Below are positions 1-13,091 of a stretch of DNA of 64,000 nt, piece after piece. The position numbers were made by a program, and so were the translations under genes. Every line of letters starts with the position of its first letter. Positions within the stretch are counted from its first letter, which is position 1. The DNA comes from Prevotella sp. (GTDB lineage: Bacteria; Bacteroidota; Bacteroidia; Bacteroidales; Bacteroidaceae), in the NCBI GenBank assembly GCA_017538105.1, contig JAFYJN010000012.1, positions 1-64,000 of the forward strand, given 5' to 3'. Below the pieces are notes generated by a model that had not been told where the DNA came from, made no database searches, and was given only the letters and a program-made list of their open reading frames with translations.

Positions 1-477
1 TAAATGAGCCTTTACAGCAGGGTAATCTTCGATTTTAATTCGAGGAATGCGCCCGCGAACGCCATTATGAGTGTTGATAAGATAAAGTCCATTGTCCACA
101 TAGCCGTATCTCTTTATATCCCTGCCGCGCAAAATAGGTCGAATAAGTTCAGCCGTTCTTTCGCGTTCATCCTCCGTTTGGCAGTTTGCCAGTATCTCAA
201 CACGTTTTTGAGAATCTATAATGAATGCTTCATTGCATCCTGTAAGTACACCACGATAGATGTTGATGTCCCAATCTTTGAGTGGTGTACCAACAGACTC
301 TATCTTCTTTTTGATGCTCAACTCTATGGGAGAAAGAATAACCCAACTGTCAGAAGAATTGAAGTCGCAGATGCTATTCTGCTGTTGCACGAAATCGCTG
401 GTTAAGTGAGAGCCATTCACAAGCTTGTTTGCAGATGGCCAAGCATGACGCGATTGAGCAAATGCCAAATAGTTCAT
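1..477 (-). CDS. Eco57I-type restriction-modification protein, TaqI-like specificity domain (partial, runs off left edge)
   Basis: The reverse strand is open from an ATG at 477 to the window edge, giving 159 residues with no stop. It matches what I know of the TaqI-like C-terminal specificity domain of Eco57I/type IIG enzymes: GVLTGCNEAF at residues 76-85 followed by RPILRGRDIKRY at 113-124, the segment that recognises the target DNA. The methyltransferase/nuclease N-terminal half expected before this region is absent, because the sequence immediately upstream is the recombinase gene. The ATG overlaps the recombinase stop codon (TAATG), so translational coupling is possible. Either this is a truncated relic or it is a specificity cassette moved by the neighbouring invertase. 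The family is recognised from memory of conserved motifs; the C-terminus is not visible. Confidence 0.75.
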   Translation of the reverse strand, partial: MNYLAFAQSRHAWPSANKLVNGSHLTSDFVQQQNSICDFNSSDSWVILSPIELSIKKKIESVGTPLKDWDINIYRGVLTGCNEAFIIDSQKRVEILANCQTEDERERTAELIRPILRGRDIKRYGYVDNGLYLINTHNGVRGRIPRIKIEDYPAVKAHL

Positions 478-1088
478 TAGTTCTCTGCCAATCCTTTAAG
501 TTCAATGAAACGAGCAAGGGTGTTCCTGTCAACCTTGCAAATTTTCGCTATTTTCCTCTTGGAAGTGCCGTTCTTCAGAAGTTCCTTGATGAGGACTTCC
601 TTACCTGATAGTTTGTATTTGTCGGTGCTACTCTTCTTTCCTTTAGGGCGACCAAGAACTACTCCTTCAGCCTTCTTCCTTGCTAAAGCTTCTTTAGTTC
701 GCTGGCTGATAAGATTACGTTCAATCTCGGCAGACAGCCCAAAAGCAAAAGCAAGGACTTTGCTTTGGATGTCATCGCCCAGACGATAGTTGTCTTTGAT
801 AGTCCATACACGGCACTCTTTTGTCATGCAGATATTCAGTATCTCCATAATCATAAAAAGATTCCTGCCCAATCGTGACAATTCACTACAGATGATAATG
901 TCATCTTTGTGGACTTTCTTAAGAAGGTTTCCCAATTGTCTCTTGGTGTAGTTCTTTGTACCACTGATAGTTTCCTCTATCCAATCGTTAATAACGATGT
1001 TCTGCTTTTCACAGAACTTGTTAATCTCGAAGCGTTGGTTTTCAACCGTCTGCTTGTCGCTGCTCACTCTGATATAACCGTAAATCAT
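477..1088 (-). CDS. Mpi-type serine DNA invertase/resolvase
   Basis: This 203-residue small serine recombinase breaks and rejoins DNA through a 5'-phosphoserine link. The N-terminal resolvase domain (about 1-135) shows YIRVS with catalytic Ser9 and Arg7, and ELSRLGRN with Arg72 and Arg75. After a long helix (LSAEIERNLISQRTKEA) comes a short DNA-binding helix-turn-helix at about 165-195. Length and C-terminal layout resemble the Bacteroides Mpi/invertase group rather than Tn3 resolvases with long tails. Mpi-group enzymes are known to flip promoters or gene segments; which sites this one uses cannot be told here. It is directly followed by a restriction specificity domain, overlapping by one base. 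No TAnnTTTG box is seen upstream, so its expression signal is unclear. Confidence 0.85.
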   Translation of the reverse strand: MIYGYIRVSSDKQTVENQRFEINKFCEKQNIVINDWIEETISGTKNYTKRQLGNLLKKVHKDDIIICSELSRLGRNLFMIMEILNICMTKECRVWTIKDNYRLGDDIQSKVLAFAFGLSAEIERNLISQRTKEALARKKAEGVVLGRPKGKKSSTDKYKLSGKEVLIKELLKNGTSKRKIAKICKVDRNTLARFIELKGLAEN

Positions 1089-1250: not shown

Positions 1251-1559
1251 ATGGATATAACGTTTGAAAAGGAATATCTGCGAGAACTGTTCTATGACGG
1301 TGAGGCGAGAGATAAAAAACATCGTTATCAGCCTGACATCATAAAACGATATGTCCGTGTGGTGAATATTCTCGACTCGGTAGATAAACCTTCAGATTTA
1401 TTACGCTATCGCTCATTACATTATGAGAAACTGGTGGGCGATATGGTTGGTATGGAATCTGTGCGTGTAAATAATAAGTATCGCATTGAGTTCAGAACAA
1501 CGTCAGAGGGAAACATCACTATTTGCAATATCATAGAATTGTCTAACCATTATAAATGA
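1251..1559 (+). CDS. higB: HigB-family toxin (RelE/ParE superfamily mRNA interferase)
   Basis: The 102-residue protein has the size and layout of HigB/RelE toxins: a helical start, then a beta-rich half with LRYRSLHYEKLVGDMVGMESVRVNNKYR-type residues, the 'killer protein' signature of an L-H-x-L-x-G region followed by S-x-R-x-N-x-x-R-I-x-F. In the family the toxin cuts mRNA on the ribosome. The antitoxin gene starts 16 bases downstream, toxin first, which is the order typical of higBA and unlike most toxin-antitoxin operons. A palindrome overlaps the promoter. Function is by family; no activity can be judged from sequence. Confidence 0.85.
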   Translation: MDITFEKEYLRELFYDGEARDKKHRYQPDIIKRYVRVVNILDSVDKPSDLLRYRSLHYEKLVGDMVGMESVRVNNKYRIEFRTTSEGNITICNIIELSNHYK

Positions 1560-1575: not shown

Positions 1576-1887
1576 ATGGGAAATTTGGGATATGGAGCAT
1601 ATCCAACACACCCGGGAGAGGTGCTGAAGGATGAGATAATAGAACGTGGCATTAGTCAGCGCCAACTGGCAGAGAGCATGGGGCTGACATATTCTGTAGT
1701 GAACGAGATACTGAATGCCCGTCGGCCTCTTACAGCCAAGACTGCCCTTATGTTTGAGGCTGCACTTGATGTACCTGCTGACTCACTGATGTATCTGCAG
1801 ACAAAGTATAATATGCAGACGGCTCGCAAAGATTCATCGCTTACAAATATGTTGCGGGAAATAAGAAAGGTTGCAGCTGCCTTCTGA
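1576..1887 (+). CDS. higA: HigA-family antitoxin, XRE-type DNA-binding protein
   Basis: This 103-residue protein begins near the family hallmark HPGEVLKDE (about residues 13-21), followed by a helix-turn-helix (GISQRQLAESMG ... NEILNARRPLT, about 25-55). HigA proteins bind and neutralise HigB and repress the operon through the helix-turn-helix. It sits 16 bases after higB and both are read from the promoter at 1222-1229. The palindrome at 1189-1205 is the obvious candidate binding site. Immediately after its end the right copy of the 26-base direct repeat begins. Confidence 0.87.
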   Translation: MGNLGYGAYPTHPGEVLKDEIIERGISQRQLAESMGLTYSVVNEILNARRPLTAKTALMFEAALDVPADSLMYLQTKYNMQTARKDSSLTNMLREIRKVAAAF

Positions 1888-2049: not shown

Positions 2050-2122
<73 letters not shown>

Positions 2123-2125
2123 CAA

Positions 2126-2257
2126 CATTCTGAATAAATACCAAGTCGATAAGACATGCCCAGGTGGCGGAATTGGTAGACGCGCACGTTTCAGGTGCGT
2201 GTGCCGCGAGGTGTGCAGGTTCGAGTCCTGTTCTGGGCACTTTCTTTATTCAGAATG
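2126..2257. repeat. 13-base inverted repeat enclosing tRNA-Leu(CAG)
   Basis: CATTCTGAATAAA at 2126-2138 is perfectly complementary to TTTATTCAGAATG at 2245-2257. In the precursor RNA the arms would pair and enclose tRNA-Leu(CAG), 19 bases before its 5' end and 5 bases after its 3' end. A role as a processing stem is inferred. Confidence 0.6.
2158..2239 (+). tRNA. tRNA-Leu (anticodon CAG)
   Basis: This 82-base tRNA has acceptor GCCCAGG pairing with TCTGGGC, the class II D-arm, anticodon stem CACGT/GCGTG around loop TTCAGGT (anticodon CAG), a long variable arm, and the T-arm GCAGG-TTCGAGT-CCTGT. The discriminator is A, as expected for leucine. Confidence 0.95.
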
Positions 2258-2266
2258 GTTTTTGTT

Positions 2267-2350
2267 GGAGAGGTGGCGGAATTGGTAGACGCGCTACTTT
2301 GAGGGGGTAGTGTCAATTGCGACGTGGGAGTTCGAGTCTCCTCCTCTTCA
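2267..2350 (+). tRNA. tRNA-Leu (anticodon GAG)
   Basis: This 84-base class II tRNA has acceptor GGAGAGG/CCTCTTC, anticodon stem CTACT/GGTAG around loop TTGAGGG (anticodon GAG), a long variable arm and T-loop TTCGAGT, with discriminator A. It shares its D-arm with the preceding tRNA-Leu. Confidence 0.95.
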
Positions 2351-2409
2351 CAAAAACAAAGATTCTGGGAACAACCGCTATTGTTGCTGTTCTCATGGAA
2401 ATCTTCGTT

Positions 2410-2482
<73 letters not shown>

Positions 2483-2516
2483 CTGTTTTAGGATAAAAAC
2501 ACAAAACCTCCATTTA

Positions 2517-9597: not shown

Positions 9598-12537
9598 TTA
9601 CTTTTTTCCTTTTTTCCCTTTTTTCCCCTTCAATAGGTAATTCATGATGCCGCGCATCACATGACCTTGGGCCTGTGACGATTCGAGGCATTCGAACGGA
9701 AATCCCATGGTGAAGCAACGGTAGTCTTGGCCGCTATAGGCAACAGCGGCCGAGCGGCCATCACCATAGAGCATGGCACAGATGCCTGGCTGCTGGGGCT
9801 GAAGAATGTCGGGGGTCGGCGAGGCGTAATGGGTCTCGTTCATCCTGCTGTAGAACGTGAAATCGCCACCAAGACCCTGAACCTTGCCGCCGTGGGTGCC
9901 GCGGTCAGTGCCACCATAACCTACCTTCAGTACAGAGGAAAGAAACATTTGCTGGTTCCTCTCGGTCATGTCGGCACCTACAAATGAACCGCTTATCAAC
10001 AGGCTGCCATGCTGCTTGGCGTATTGGGAGAGCTTCTGCTGCATCGTGCTGCTGAAGGCTTGATAGAGTACCAACGAACGACCATCGTTACGCTCCAGGC
10101 CCAAGACCAGGTCAACACAGTCGTAGTCTGTCAACTTTATCTTGCCGCTTTCCACCGACTCGCTCGAACAACTTACGATGTTGTAACTCTGGGCGGAATG
10201 GATGGCTTCGGCATGGGTCTTCACATAATTGAAGTCGTTGCCGGCGATAAAACGACCGGCAAGTTCGTCTCCGCCATAACCCAGCGAACCGGGACCTTCC
10301 TTGCCGCGCTGACTATTGTCGAAACAGGTCTGACGACCGTTCCAACCCGCCGTGGGACCATAAGTAATGCCTGGGTCGGCATCCAAGTCGAATCCTTTTC
10401 GGTCTCCAGTGTCAATGATGGCGGGGGATGTGAGGCGGTGGAATCCGTTCACCACCAACACGGTTTGATGGGCATCTGGCTGTATGCAGGCTGAAAGCAC
10501 TTCCGACGGAAAACTCTCGCCGCCTTTGTTCACAGCTGTAATACGGAAATGATACAGATGCCCAGGATTAACATCTACTAAACAACTGTTGCCTTTCACG
10601 TTGGTGCCGTTGTCGAAGCCACCGTCGTCAATGGCACAATACACATTGAAGGAACTAGGAGAGGCACTGGGTTCTTGGGGGTCACGGGTACCGGCCCAAC
10701 TGAGTTTCACTTTGTCCTTTCCAGTCAGTTCAATCTGGAAACTGTTGGGTTGGAGGGGTTGAACAGTATACTTGGTGCCATGCATCTCATTCACATAACG
10801 AAGGATGGTCTTATAGATGGAACGGGCTAAGGTGAAGCGGAAATTGGGGTCGAGAGCATAACGCATATCACCAAAATTCTGGTGCGACAGGGTCTCGATG
10901 ATGGAAGAGGGAACGGCGGGCAACCGACTCTCGGAGTAATTGCGGTCGTATATCACTCGCTTGTACCATTTGTTATAACGGTAGCGAAGATCGCGGTAGG
11001 CTCCTTCCAACAGGGCGTCGGCAAAATCGCGAGAGGCCAAACGGGAGATGCCGGCATCATACTTGCCATCGTTGTATTGCGTGGTGCAGATGGAGAGGGT
11101 TCCTATCAACTCGTTGCCGCCCGTGCGGTCATAGCCGGCATCGCTGTGAACGGCAAGCTCTAACTCGATGGGGACGCGCTTGCCCGTCTGGCCGGGCATG
11201 AACACGCTACCACCGCCTATCCAGTTGGTGAAAAGGGAGCGTACGTTGATGTCGTCACCATAGTCGTCTTTGCCTTCCTTTGAGCTGTAAACACTATAAG
11301 GGGCTCCGGCCCATTGTGCGAAATAACGGGAGCCTTCAAGGCAACGGGGCATGCCACTGGTGCTACCGCCACGGGTGATGTTGCCCATACCACCGCCAAA
11401 ACGAACGGCATCGGCACTTACAAGGCCTGAATGCTCGCTATCGTTAATCAATTCCACACGGTTGCCGATATCCATACCCTTGGAAAAATCAAAGGTACCT
11501 AAATAAACCCAGGTGCTACCGCCCATGCGCTGGTTGACGCGGAAATGGGTGGGCTGGCCTTTATGCCATACCACATAATGGGCGTCGTCGACACTGTTGG
11601 GAAGGGTCTGGTAACTTACGTATACGGCATAACGGCCACTTTCGGGAATGTCGGGCAGGTAGGTGGCTATACTAACGTCTTTTTTACTGGTACTTTTCAC
11701 CATGCGGGCACTGCCGGCGGAAAAGGGATTCTCACCATCGCGATAAGTTCCGCCGTGACGGGCAAAACCATTTTGGTCGGTGGTAGTCCAGGGATGGCTG
11801 CCGTTGCGTTCATCATATCGACCTGCACTGCTGCCGTCATTGTCTACTATTACTTCCCGTTTCTGCCAGTCGCGCTCACGGGGGGAGAAAACCACGGCTC
11901 CTGCATTCTCCAGCATGGGCATCAGATAGGGGACGACAATAGTTTGGGTGAACAGGTCTTCGGTGGTGCAGAATAGGTTCGGACGCTGCCATTTCCACTG
12001 GCCTTTGTTCTTGTCGTAATATTTTCCGTGGCTGGCTCCTATGGAGAGGTGGCGACCATCGAGACCTTCGGTCACTTCGTGAGGACGGGACACATTCTTC
12101 ACCCATGGATTGCCTTCGTAATCTACGCTACCCCAAGTGCGCTTGCGGTCCTTGTTGTCTCGAAAACGGTTGGGTATCAATTCGCTCAACTCATAACCGT
12201 TGGTCATTAAACGAATACGGTAACGGTTGTAAGGGGAGGGAAGAGAACGACCAATCTTATCGTAGATGTCGTCCACTATCTCGGGCGTCAGCTCTTGCTC
12301 GGAAAACTTTGAGTCGGCATCGATAATAAGAGTGTTGCTGCTGTCGTCAATTCGGAAACCCGTCATCTTCGATTTCAACTGGTAATTGGTGTGGCGGGCT
12401 TGGTAATTGTTGAAGAAGGATTCCAAACGACTCCGAATGTTGTCGCGTTGTTCGCCATCCTGGCTAAAAACTTGCTGATAGAAAAAGAACAGCAGTAAAA
12501 GGGGGATATAACGGGGATTGTTGCGTAAAAATGTCAT
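9598..12537 (-). CDS. Secreted golvesin-domain / xanthan-lyase-like protein
   Basis: The 979-residue protein starts with a signal peptide (PRYIPLLLLFFFYQQVFSQ). Its centre carries a golvesin C-terminal-like segment (ISRYAVYVSYQTLPNSVDDAHYVVWHKG-type sequence around 310-380), followed by ELAVHSDAGYDRTGGNELIGTLS (about 460-480), which resembles the catalytic zinc region of N-acetylmuramoyl-alanine amidases (His/Asp and a later Glu). A fibronectin type III-like domain follows (about 610-690: VKLSWAGTRDPQEPSASPSSFNVY). Bacteroidetes homologs are annotated xanthan lyase, but that name is weakly supported; a wall or polysaccharide hydrolase is the cautious call. It overlaps the acyltransferase gene by four bases. 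The last residues are a lysine/glycine run (KGKKGKKGKK). Confidence 0.78.
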   Translation of the reverse strand: MTFLRNNPRYIPLLLLFFFYQQVFSQDGEQRDNIRSRLESFFNNYQARHTNYQLKSKMTGFRIDDSSNTLIIDADSKFSEQELTPEIVDDIYDKIGRSLPSPYNRYRIRLMTNGYELSELIPNRFRDNKDRKRTWGSVDYEGNPWVKNVSRPHEVTEGLDGRHLSIGASHGKYYDKNKGQWKWQRPNLFCTTEDLFTQTIVVPYLMPMLENAGAVVFSPRERDWQKREVIVDNDGSSAGRYDERNGSHPWTTTDQNGFARHGGTYRDGENPFSAGSARMVKSTSKKDVSIATYLPDIPESGRYAVYVSYQTLPNSVDDAHYVVWHKGQPTHFRVNQRMGGSTWVYLGTFDFSKGMDIGNRVELINDSEHSGLVSADAVRFGGGMGNITRGGSTSGMPRCLEGSRYFAQWAGAPYSVYSSKEGKDDYGDDINVRSLFTNWIGGGSVFMPGQTGKRVPIELELAVHSDAGYDRTGGNELIGTLSICTTQYNDGKYDAGISRLASRDFADALLEGAYRDLRYRYNKWYKRVIYDRNYSESRLPAVPSSIIETLSHQNFGDMRYALDPNFRFTLARSIYKTILRYVNEMHGTKYTVQPLQPNSFQIELTGKDKVKLSWAGTRDPQEPSASPSSFNVYCAIDDGGFDNGTNVKGNSCLVDVNPGHLYHFRITAVNKGGESFPSEVLSACIQPDAHQTVLVVNGFHRLTSPAIIDTGDRKGFDLDADPGITYGPTAGWNGRQTCFDNSQRGKEGPGSLGYGGDELAGRFIAGNDFNYVKTHAEAIHSAQSYNIVSCSSESVESGKIKLTDYDCVDLVLGLERNDGRSLVLYQAFSSTMQQKLSQYAKQHGSLLISGSFVGADMTERNQQMFLSSVLKVGYGGTDRGTHGGKVQGLGGDFTFYSRMNETHYASPTPDILQPQQPGICAMLYGDGRSAAVAYSGQDYRCFTMGFPFECLESSQAQGHVMRGIMNYLLKGKKGKKGKK

Positions 12538-13091
12538 GATGGGTCTCCGATAGTGAAATTTTCTGGGTGCTTGCCCTTGAAGTTTTTGTAATAATGCTTG
12601 ATCTTTTGCATGTCGCTGTCAATGTCGCCTGTGGGGATGATTTCCTCCGTACACTGGATGAGCTTGCGGCTGTAGTCCAAACCATAAAGAAGAATGGGAA
12701 GGTGAGCCTTCATGGCGATGATGTAGAATCCCTTTTTCCATTCCCCCGTGGCGGAACGGGTGCCTTCAGGGGTAATCGTCAGGTGAAAAGTGTCTTCGCG
12801 AAGGGCCGTGGCGGCAAGCGTGTCAGTCATGCTGGTACGCTTGTCACGATAGACGGGGATGCCGCCAAGACGACGAAACAACAATCCCAAAGGCCAGAAA
12901 AACCATTCCTTCTTCATCAGAAACTGAATTTTCCAACCTTCGGCACCGGAATACAACTGACCTAATACAAAATCCCAGTTGCTCGTGTGAGGGGCTAAAC
13001 AGATGATGTATTTCGCTGGGTGGACAATAGTCACTTCCTTCGTCCAACCCAACCGTTTATACAATAGCCAACGGCAAAATCTCTTCCACAT
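12534..13091 (-). CDS. 1-acyl-sn-glycerol-3-phosphate acyltransferase-like protein
   Basis: This 185-residue PlsC-family protein carries the HX4D catalytic motif as HTSNWD (residues 35-40) and the substrate motif EGTRS (about 109-113) with GGIPVYRDK before it. It would transfer an acyl chain to a lysophospholipid or similar acceptor. It is smaller than typical PlsC (about 240) and lacks an obvious N-terminal membrane helix, a form common in Bacteroidetes. The ATG at 13091 follows the upstream hypothetical gene by 15 bases; its end overlaps the golvesin-domain gene by four bases, so translation is probably coupled. Confidence 0.85.
   Translation of the reverse strand: MWKRFCRWLLYKRLGWTKEVTIVHPAKYIICLAPHTSNWDFVLGQLYSGAEGWKIQFLMKKEWFFWPLGLLFRRLGGIPVYRDKRTSMTDTLAATALREDTFHLTITPEGTRSATGEWKKGFYIIAMKAHLPILLYGLDYSRKLIQCTEEIIPTGDIDSDMQKIKHYYKNFKGKHPENFTIGDPS

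Follow-up and report, generated by a model that had tools for sequence, protein, structure and literature searches.

Why a DNA invertase gene should be followed at once by a bare restriction specificity domain is the question raised by the left end of the window, the window being the whole 64,000-nucleotide stretch of Prevotella sp. DNA that was analysed. The answer favoured here, at a probability of about 0.87, is that the locus is the invertase-side half of a combinatorial specificity shufflon that has its own invertase.

The invertase gene and the adjoining specificity frame

The first gene of the pair is assigned by profile to the Mpi-family serine invertases and is predicted to catalyse DNA inversion. 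Pfam placed a Resolvase domain in it (PF00239, E 7.8e-34), and NCBIfam NF009949 matched residues 1-199 of 203 with 348 bits, above the cut-off of 272. The adjoining specificity ORF runs to base 1 of the window, which is the end of contig C23 in an assembly of 3.61 Mb and 102 contigs. Coordinates are collected in Table 1.

Table 1. Features at the left end of the window
Feature	Position	Strand	Remark
Predicted Mpi-family serine DNA invertase, 203 aa	477..1088	(-)	best 80 relatives 81-98% identical
Silent specificity cassette ORF, 159 codons, open to contig end	1..477	(-)	
~75-bp stretch between invertase stop and cassette	400..476	(-)	resembles post-invertase DNA of Segatella albensis (L041) and L038
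Site 1, AGCGATTTCGTGCAACA, proposed crossover site at cassette start	383..399	(-)	
Module A, N type (IYRGVLTG)	137..399	(-)	
Site 2, CGACCTATTTTGCGCGGCA, second proposed crossover site	123..141	(-)	
Start of module B1, NTHNG type, cut by contig end	1..136	(-)	
HigB-like toxin gene (PF05015)	1251-1559	(+)	divergent from invertase
HTH_3 antitoxin-like gene	1576-1887	(+)	divergent from invertase
Four tRNA genes (Gly-GCC, Leu-CAG, Leu-GAG, Gly-GCC)	2050-2483	(+)	near the locus

An earlier note on this DNA had described an invertase followed by a specificity domain without a methyltransferase. The order, on the (-) strand, is borne out by the open reading frames and by PF00239, NF009949 and PADLOC. 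The description of the domain is also correct, because PADLOC aligned its 159 residues with the specificity end of type IIG restriction-methyltransferases (best E 1.2e-38); a Pfam search of the same 159 residues returned zero matches. The head-to-tail fusion that the note proposed was mistaken, the pair being two overlapping genes. In the window, the ATG of the specificity ORF does overlap the invertase stop, by one base (TAATG), but this did not hold up as a conserved feature, an ATG lying directly 5′ of the cassette in 24 of 59 loci. The overlap, together with the intact silent frames described below, would suit translation of the silent ORF as a separate specificity subunit coupled to the invertase. 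Such a subunit is nevertheless very unlikely, given the 24 of 59 loci and given that in Prevotella intermedia 17F the convergent second gene on its own yielded no motif and, when added to the first gene, no new motif (accessible portion of PMC5608340).

The cassette itself starts at base 399, ∼75 bp beyond the invertase stop. This spacer is missing in relatives where site 1 directly abuts the invertase. At L041 (S. albensis, 10001-10612) and also at L038, Mpi-type invertases 95% identical to that of the window are followed by a window-like spacer stretch, and a search of the S. albensis genome for module A was negative at E 1e-10.

A proposed partner enzyme in the same genome

The earlier note had proposed a search for a full Eco57I-type gene with a matching junction, and such a gene was found in the same genome, on contig C57, the last 270 bases of which gave the only other match to the fragment in the genome at E 10. 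This contig carries the gene for a PLD- and SNF2/helicase-domain protein of 1103 aa and, after it, one for an Eco57I-type methyltransferase (PF07669, E 6.9e-39; PADLOC REase_MTase_IIG, E 1.7e-104) that is still open at the contig end and has a specificity region homologous to the window fragment. Adenine methyltransferase and specificity domain lie in one chain, as is characteristic of type IIG enzymes. As regards an endonuclease domain in that chain, zero Pfam families were found at E 0.01 before residue 485 of the methyltransferase, the PLD domain sitting in the partner helicase. Membership of DISARM was rejected (DrmD, 149.7 bits against a cut-off of 610), as was membership of BREX (PglX, 93.8 bits against a cut-off of 500).

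The window and C57 cassettes share 70% nucleotide identity over 263 bp, beginning at AGCGATTTCGTGCA in both. Module A is of the Q type (INYGIKTG) on C57 and of the N type in the window. C57 terminates exactly after the CGACC of its own site 2. The window cassette and its putative neighbour stand on separate contigs, the stretch between them being missing from the assembly, a point against the shufflon. Rearrangement of a locus may cause an assembly gap such as that between C57 and C23, although the gap is not proof of it. Within this genome, a B-module profile matched the piece in the window and, on C42 and C62, two other methyltransferases; site 3, module B2 and the rest of the B modules were not found elsewhere in the assembly by this search.

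Cassette pairs and junctions in relatives

An invertase scan of GTDB species genomes yielded 492 relatives, of which the best 80 were analysed. A specificity-domain match lay directly downstream of the invertase in 53 of the 80, and the site 1 motif (≤3 mismatches) adjoined the invertase in 59 of the 80, compared with 0 of 76 upstream control stretches. The pairing of invertase and cassette is more than chance and recurs in most of the best 80 relatives; the earlier view that a recombinase and a specificity domain in one putative transcript are unusual finds no support in these counts. The 59 sites include three hybrids (L082, L088 and L107); L117 was dropped as a duplicate of L051, and L116 enters the site counts with its expressed copy only.

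An invertase with a silent cassette and a convergent second cassette was present in 26 of the best 80 relatives, with a methyltransferase match in 23 of these 26 and a helicase match in 19, 12 of the 19 at ≥65% identity. Within the genus, 30 of 200 genomes (own included) matched the fragment at E 1e-3, and five (G003, G124, G132, G140 and G195) carry two fragment copies in opposite orientation, 1.0-1.2 kb apart. The inverted arrangement that had been predicted for this locus is thus found in both samples. In 34 of the 80 relatives, the contig broke off no more than 2 kb from the invertase on the side of the cassette, compared with 5 of the 80 on the opposite side. The best 80 include Parasutterella muris (L101), of a genus that we take to lie outside Bacteroidota. 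In an order-wide sample, module A was matched at E 1e-25 in 18 of 393 genomes, many of the matches being single methyltransferases, and a scan of IMG/VR gave 41 loci, with a cassette pair in three (L143, L145 and L158).

Site 1 was absent near the invertase at ≤3 mismatches in 20 of the 80, one further relative being cut too short. Some of these 20 loci are hybrid, diverged or cut, and the group counts against the shufflon. When the 12 with long flanks were searched genome-wide (E 1e-10), module A was found elsewhere in three, two of these matches being weak (40-45% identity), and in nine there was none, so that invertases without a cassette do exist. The other eight include L067, which is a hybrid; L073 and L092, which carry a domain match; and L075, which ends inside a site.

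A complete frame of 267-338 codons was retained by 29 of the 41 silent copies with ≥1000 nt of sequence. The remaining 12, which weigh against the shufflon, include A-only and hybrid forms, two copies with N runs and one cassette-less locus. For silent B modules, three silent-silent pairs gave dN/dS values of 0.054, 0.114 and 0.120, and one expressed-expressed pair at similar distance gave 0.104; dS in these pairs is 1.3-1.8, near saturation, and was undefined in three of nine pairs. Judged from frames and ratios, the silent copies appear to be maintained. The earlier note had also allowed for a relic of an insertion, that is, a dead fragment in which an old insertion or recombination event had stranded a specificity domain next to a recombinase. 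The window frame, open only up to the contig end, and the ∼75 bp of other sequence preceding the cassette would fit such a relic, as would the cassette-less invertases and the 12 incomplete silent copies. It is contradicted by the 29 complete frames, by the dN/dS of 0.05-0.12 and by junction sites that are identical within loci, and is accordingly regarded as highly improbable.

In the cassette, three junctions constrained at the DNA level, sites 1-3, separate modules A, B1 and B2. The site 1 17-mer AGCGWTTTYGTGCRGCA was identical in the silent and expressed copies of 23 of 26 loci, whereas random pairing gave 8% and none of 2000 permutations was as extreme; between loci it varies, synonymously too. 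The exceptions were L054 and L119, with one difference each, and L107, a site 1/site 2 hybrid; the own-genome pair differs at 1 of 17 positions. In the 12 bases to the left of site 1 there was no within-locus similarity (mean distance of 7.00, against 6.997 by permutation). At site 2, 24-mers were identical within the locus in 48% of 23 loci, compared with 3% by permutation. The site 3 profile rests on 14 loci with both copies matched by pattern, 21 copies being unmatched.

The constraint is visible in codon choice. Several codons of site 1 (Ser AGC, 54/55; Asp GAT, 29/29; first Gln CAG, 46/46) and site 2 (Arg CGA, 55/56; Ile ATT, 54/56; Gly GGC, 53/56) are near-frozen, against a mean normalised codon entropy of 0.88 for 56 well-conserved codons elsewhere, and site 3 uses Tyr TAT (53/53), Glu GAG (40/40), Asp GAC (13/13), Asp GAT (44/44) and Pro CCA (52/53). 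Other site codons are unconstrained (normalised entropy of 0.96 for Phe and 0.98 for the second Gln of site 1, and of 0.81 for Ile and 0.92 for Asp of site 2), a point against the shufflon.

Exchange of cassettes over evolutionary time could also be due to ordinary homologous recombination or gene conversion, the invertase serving another switch. Within loci, tens of bases flanking site 2 have been homogenised, as this could bring about, and specificity genes of Helicobacter pylori undergo domain movement at repeats by a mechanism that the available text of PMC3077401 leaves open. The sharp boundary at site 1, with unrelated left flanks, argues against this explanation, as do the 2-bp junctions of a flipped B1 and the site 1/site 2 hybrids, which share little beyond the core. 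Only two exact copies of site 1 are present in the 3.6-Mb genome, moreover, both in these cassettes, and homologous recombination is considered unlikely. A global switch of the Mpi type was rejected on the basis of the two exact sites and of 50 matches (25 per strand) at ≤3 mismatches, compared with 28 for a reversed-pattern control.

Module exchange, proposed mechanism and methylation motifs

Module A is ∼90 aa long and occurs as the two types already named, Q and N. Module B1 occurs as NTHNG, ATFP and PWHFP types, and 54 B2 modules formed 18 families on clustering at 50% identity. Silent and expressed copies were of opposite A types in 22 of 25 loci (own genome counted), and their B1 types differed in 22 of 22 loci. 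All six combinations of A and B1 occur (Q 13, 13, 3; N 11, 10, 4; n = 54; chi-square p 0.82). Hoylesella loescheii carries a silent module A that matches, base for base, the module A expressed in Alloprevotella tannerae; B1 differs in kind (55%), and the H. loescheii B2 is cut by the contig end.

Close relatives were found in opposite arrangements. Prevotella vespertina (G003) and G132 are ∼97% identical through helicase and methyltransferase, and the expressed module A of G003 corresponds to the silent A of G132 (98.7% over 302 bp, zero amino-acid changes). Module B of the expressed gene has remained in place, the silent B1 has been inverted, and the invertase is found ∼17 kb off. The flipped B1 is bordered by junctions of 2 bp, CC at one end and GG at the other, such as a serine recombinase with a 2-bp core would leave. 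This was not a clean reciprocal swap, because the N type of G132 does not reappear as the silent A of G003.

A second pair is provided by the Lactococcus plasmids pJM1F and pUCCL629A, which have the same invertase accession and a backbone 92% identical over 5764 bp. They share a block of A and B1, 98.8% and 100% identical respectively, which pJM1F expresses and which in pUCCL629A is silent and inverted; site 3 marks the end of the block, and past it the B2 modules are unrelated. At the other positions, the two B1 modules belong to one type, with 85% identity. In both plasmids the invertase points away from the silent cassette, opposite to the Bacteroidales layout. The stretches covered of pUCCL635A and pLLUC147A contained neither invertase nor silent cassette. 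Given that B2 or the silent A differs too, neither the plasmid pair nor the Prevotella pair is a pure one-step inversion, which counts against the shufflon.

Breaks were also observed at site 2. Six cassettes, one expressed (L036) and five silent (L039, L059, L065, L072 and L108), stop directly after it (CGACC, with a single-base change in two cases) and run on into other sequence, and at four loci (L067, L082, L088 and L107) module B follows the invertase side directly, the join lying at site 2. At L036, the expressed enzyme is cut short after site 2, 14 bp replacing B1 in an apparent off state, and a larger array with four B2 modules occupies 10612-12872.

The shufflon is preferred because a partner enzyme exists on C57, because 26 of 80 relatives have convergent pairs, 23 of these 26 with identical site 1, and because the left flank is unrelated. 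The frozen site codons, the module shuffling, the opposite arrangements, the bias of contig ends and the low dN/dS of silent copies point the same way. The expressed partner would be the Eco57I-type methyltransferase beside the PLD-SNF2 helicase on C57, its C-terminal DNA-reading region comprising modules A, B1 and B2, with three short recombination sites as their borders. Another set of modules, silent and in opposite orientation, would sit 3′ of the invertase. The invertase of the window, as the putative catalyst, would recombine like sites, so that exchange at site 1 would swap A, B1 and B2, at site 2 B1 and B2, and at site 3 B2 alone. As like sites would exchange at three points, two cassettes could give eight proteins, and a flip of B1 between sites 2 and 3 would break the gene, giving an off state. 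Such switching would be expected to take place in living populations. The phase-variable system of the earlier note, in which the invertase swaps the cassette joined to the enzyme, is supported by the partner on C57 and by the inverted relatives, but with three exchange points and not one.

How the three exchange points would be kept apart can be described only tentatively, by a scheme that is possible but somewhat doubtful as a whole. In this scheme, each junction would have its own 2-bp core (GC at site 1, CC at site 2 and GG at site 3), like would pair with like with the frame kept, the flip of B1 would serve as an off switch, two cassettes would provide eight specificities, and module A would set one end of the motif, CC for Q and GG for N. 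The core rule, under which like cores pair and sites 2 and 3 of one cassette are mutually inverted, is possible. Since site 3 would have the polarity opposite to site 2 and the same core, B1 could flip in place. With the crossover placed at these cores, the right arms of site 1 (86/89) and site 2 (53/56) show GC again at a distance of 12-13 bases. On four unrelated arms GC stands 14-15 bases out, namely on the invertase side (24/62), the methyltransferase side (18/27), the left of site 2 (34/56) and the right of site 3 (47/52); the left arm of site 3 fits this spacing poorly (15/52). Recombination would have to be leaky, because the site 1/site 2 hybrids could form only with a mismatched core.

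Inverting type I specificity genes are already well known. The phase-variable type I hsdS systems, such as pneumococcal cod/spnIII and the gut hsdS invertons, resemble the present loci, as far as their available descriptions go, in having inverted specificity genes, a nearby recombinase and variable specificity. They differ in having a separate S subunit, whereas here the modules form the C-terminus of a single-chain methyltransferase. PsrA, the invertase of cod/spnIII, is a tyrosine-type recombinase, and the gut hsdS invertons, in the descriptions available, likewise have tyrosine-type recombinases; here, by contrast, an Mpi-type serine invertase adjoins and each cassette has three sites. Mpi of Bacteroides fragilis has the same NCBIfam family name as the window invertase, but inverts at least thirteen regions genome-wide, whereas exact site 1 copies here are confined to two cassettes. 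Milman, Yelin and Kishony, writing in 2023 on gene-altering programmed inversions, reportedly named type II systems as a newly found inverting family. In the literature searched (titles and abstract openings), no three-site shufflon in a single-chain type IIG-like enzyme is described.

The locus most like the shufflon loci is Pin17FIII of P. intermedia 17F, which, in the accessible sections of PMC5608340, comprises a 3354-bp methyltransferase gene, a convergent 918-bp gene 23 bp off and an SNF2 helicase upstream. The native DNA of this strain has three related motifs, GGNYAG, CCNYAG and GGYGAB, of which the cloned Pin17FIII gene gives GGYGAB only; in those sections the other two are left unexplained by the authors and inversion is not proposed for this type IIG locus (PMC5608340). 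The modules, in the shufflon, would set the motif. In Rikenella microfusus DSM 15922 (L087), the two A modules are identical (270/270 bases), and CC is present in each of the three motifs, the alignment of SCCAAB being uncertain. Taken together, the identical A modules and the shared CC suggest that module A sets the CC or GG end of the motif. The expressed frame of L087 breaks within B1.

If true, the shufflon would explain the unassigned methylation motifs of P. intermedia 17F, and it makes the testable prediction for Bacteroidales methylomes that a single locus gives rise to several related motifs. It would also be a natural case of a recombinase that keeps three exchange points apart, and a plug-in specificity switch on different enzyme bodies, reaching Lactococcus plasmids and Parasutterella, would bear on phage defence and on barriers to DNA transfer. 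At L099 and L111, cassette pairs of the same kind stand on methyltransferases with a different N-terminus, and the retrieved stretch around them has no helicase match; the shufflon looks here as though it could be plugged into other enzyme bodies.

Two further records were noted. At L100 (Bacteroides xylanisolvens XB1A), the two cassettes of a record titled as a complete sequence are separated by a run of N, which is either a real gap or masking by the collection. The circular record NZ_OY725960.1 (L184, H1), a 15.5-kb plasmid of Bacteroides finegoldii, carries a methyltransferase with module A (84%) and, ∼1.2 kb past the methyltransferase end, an annotated 'recombinase family protein'.
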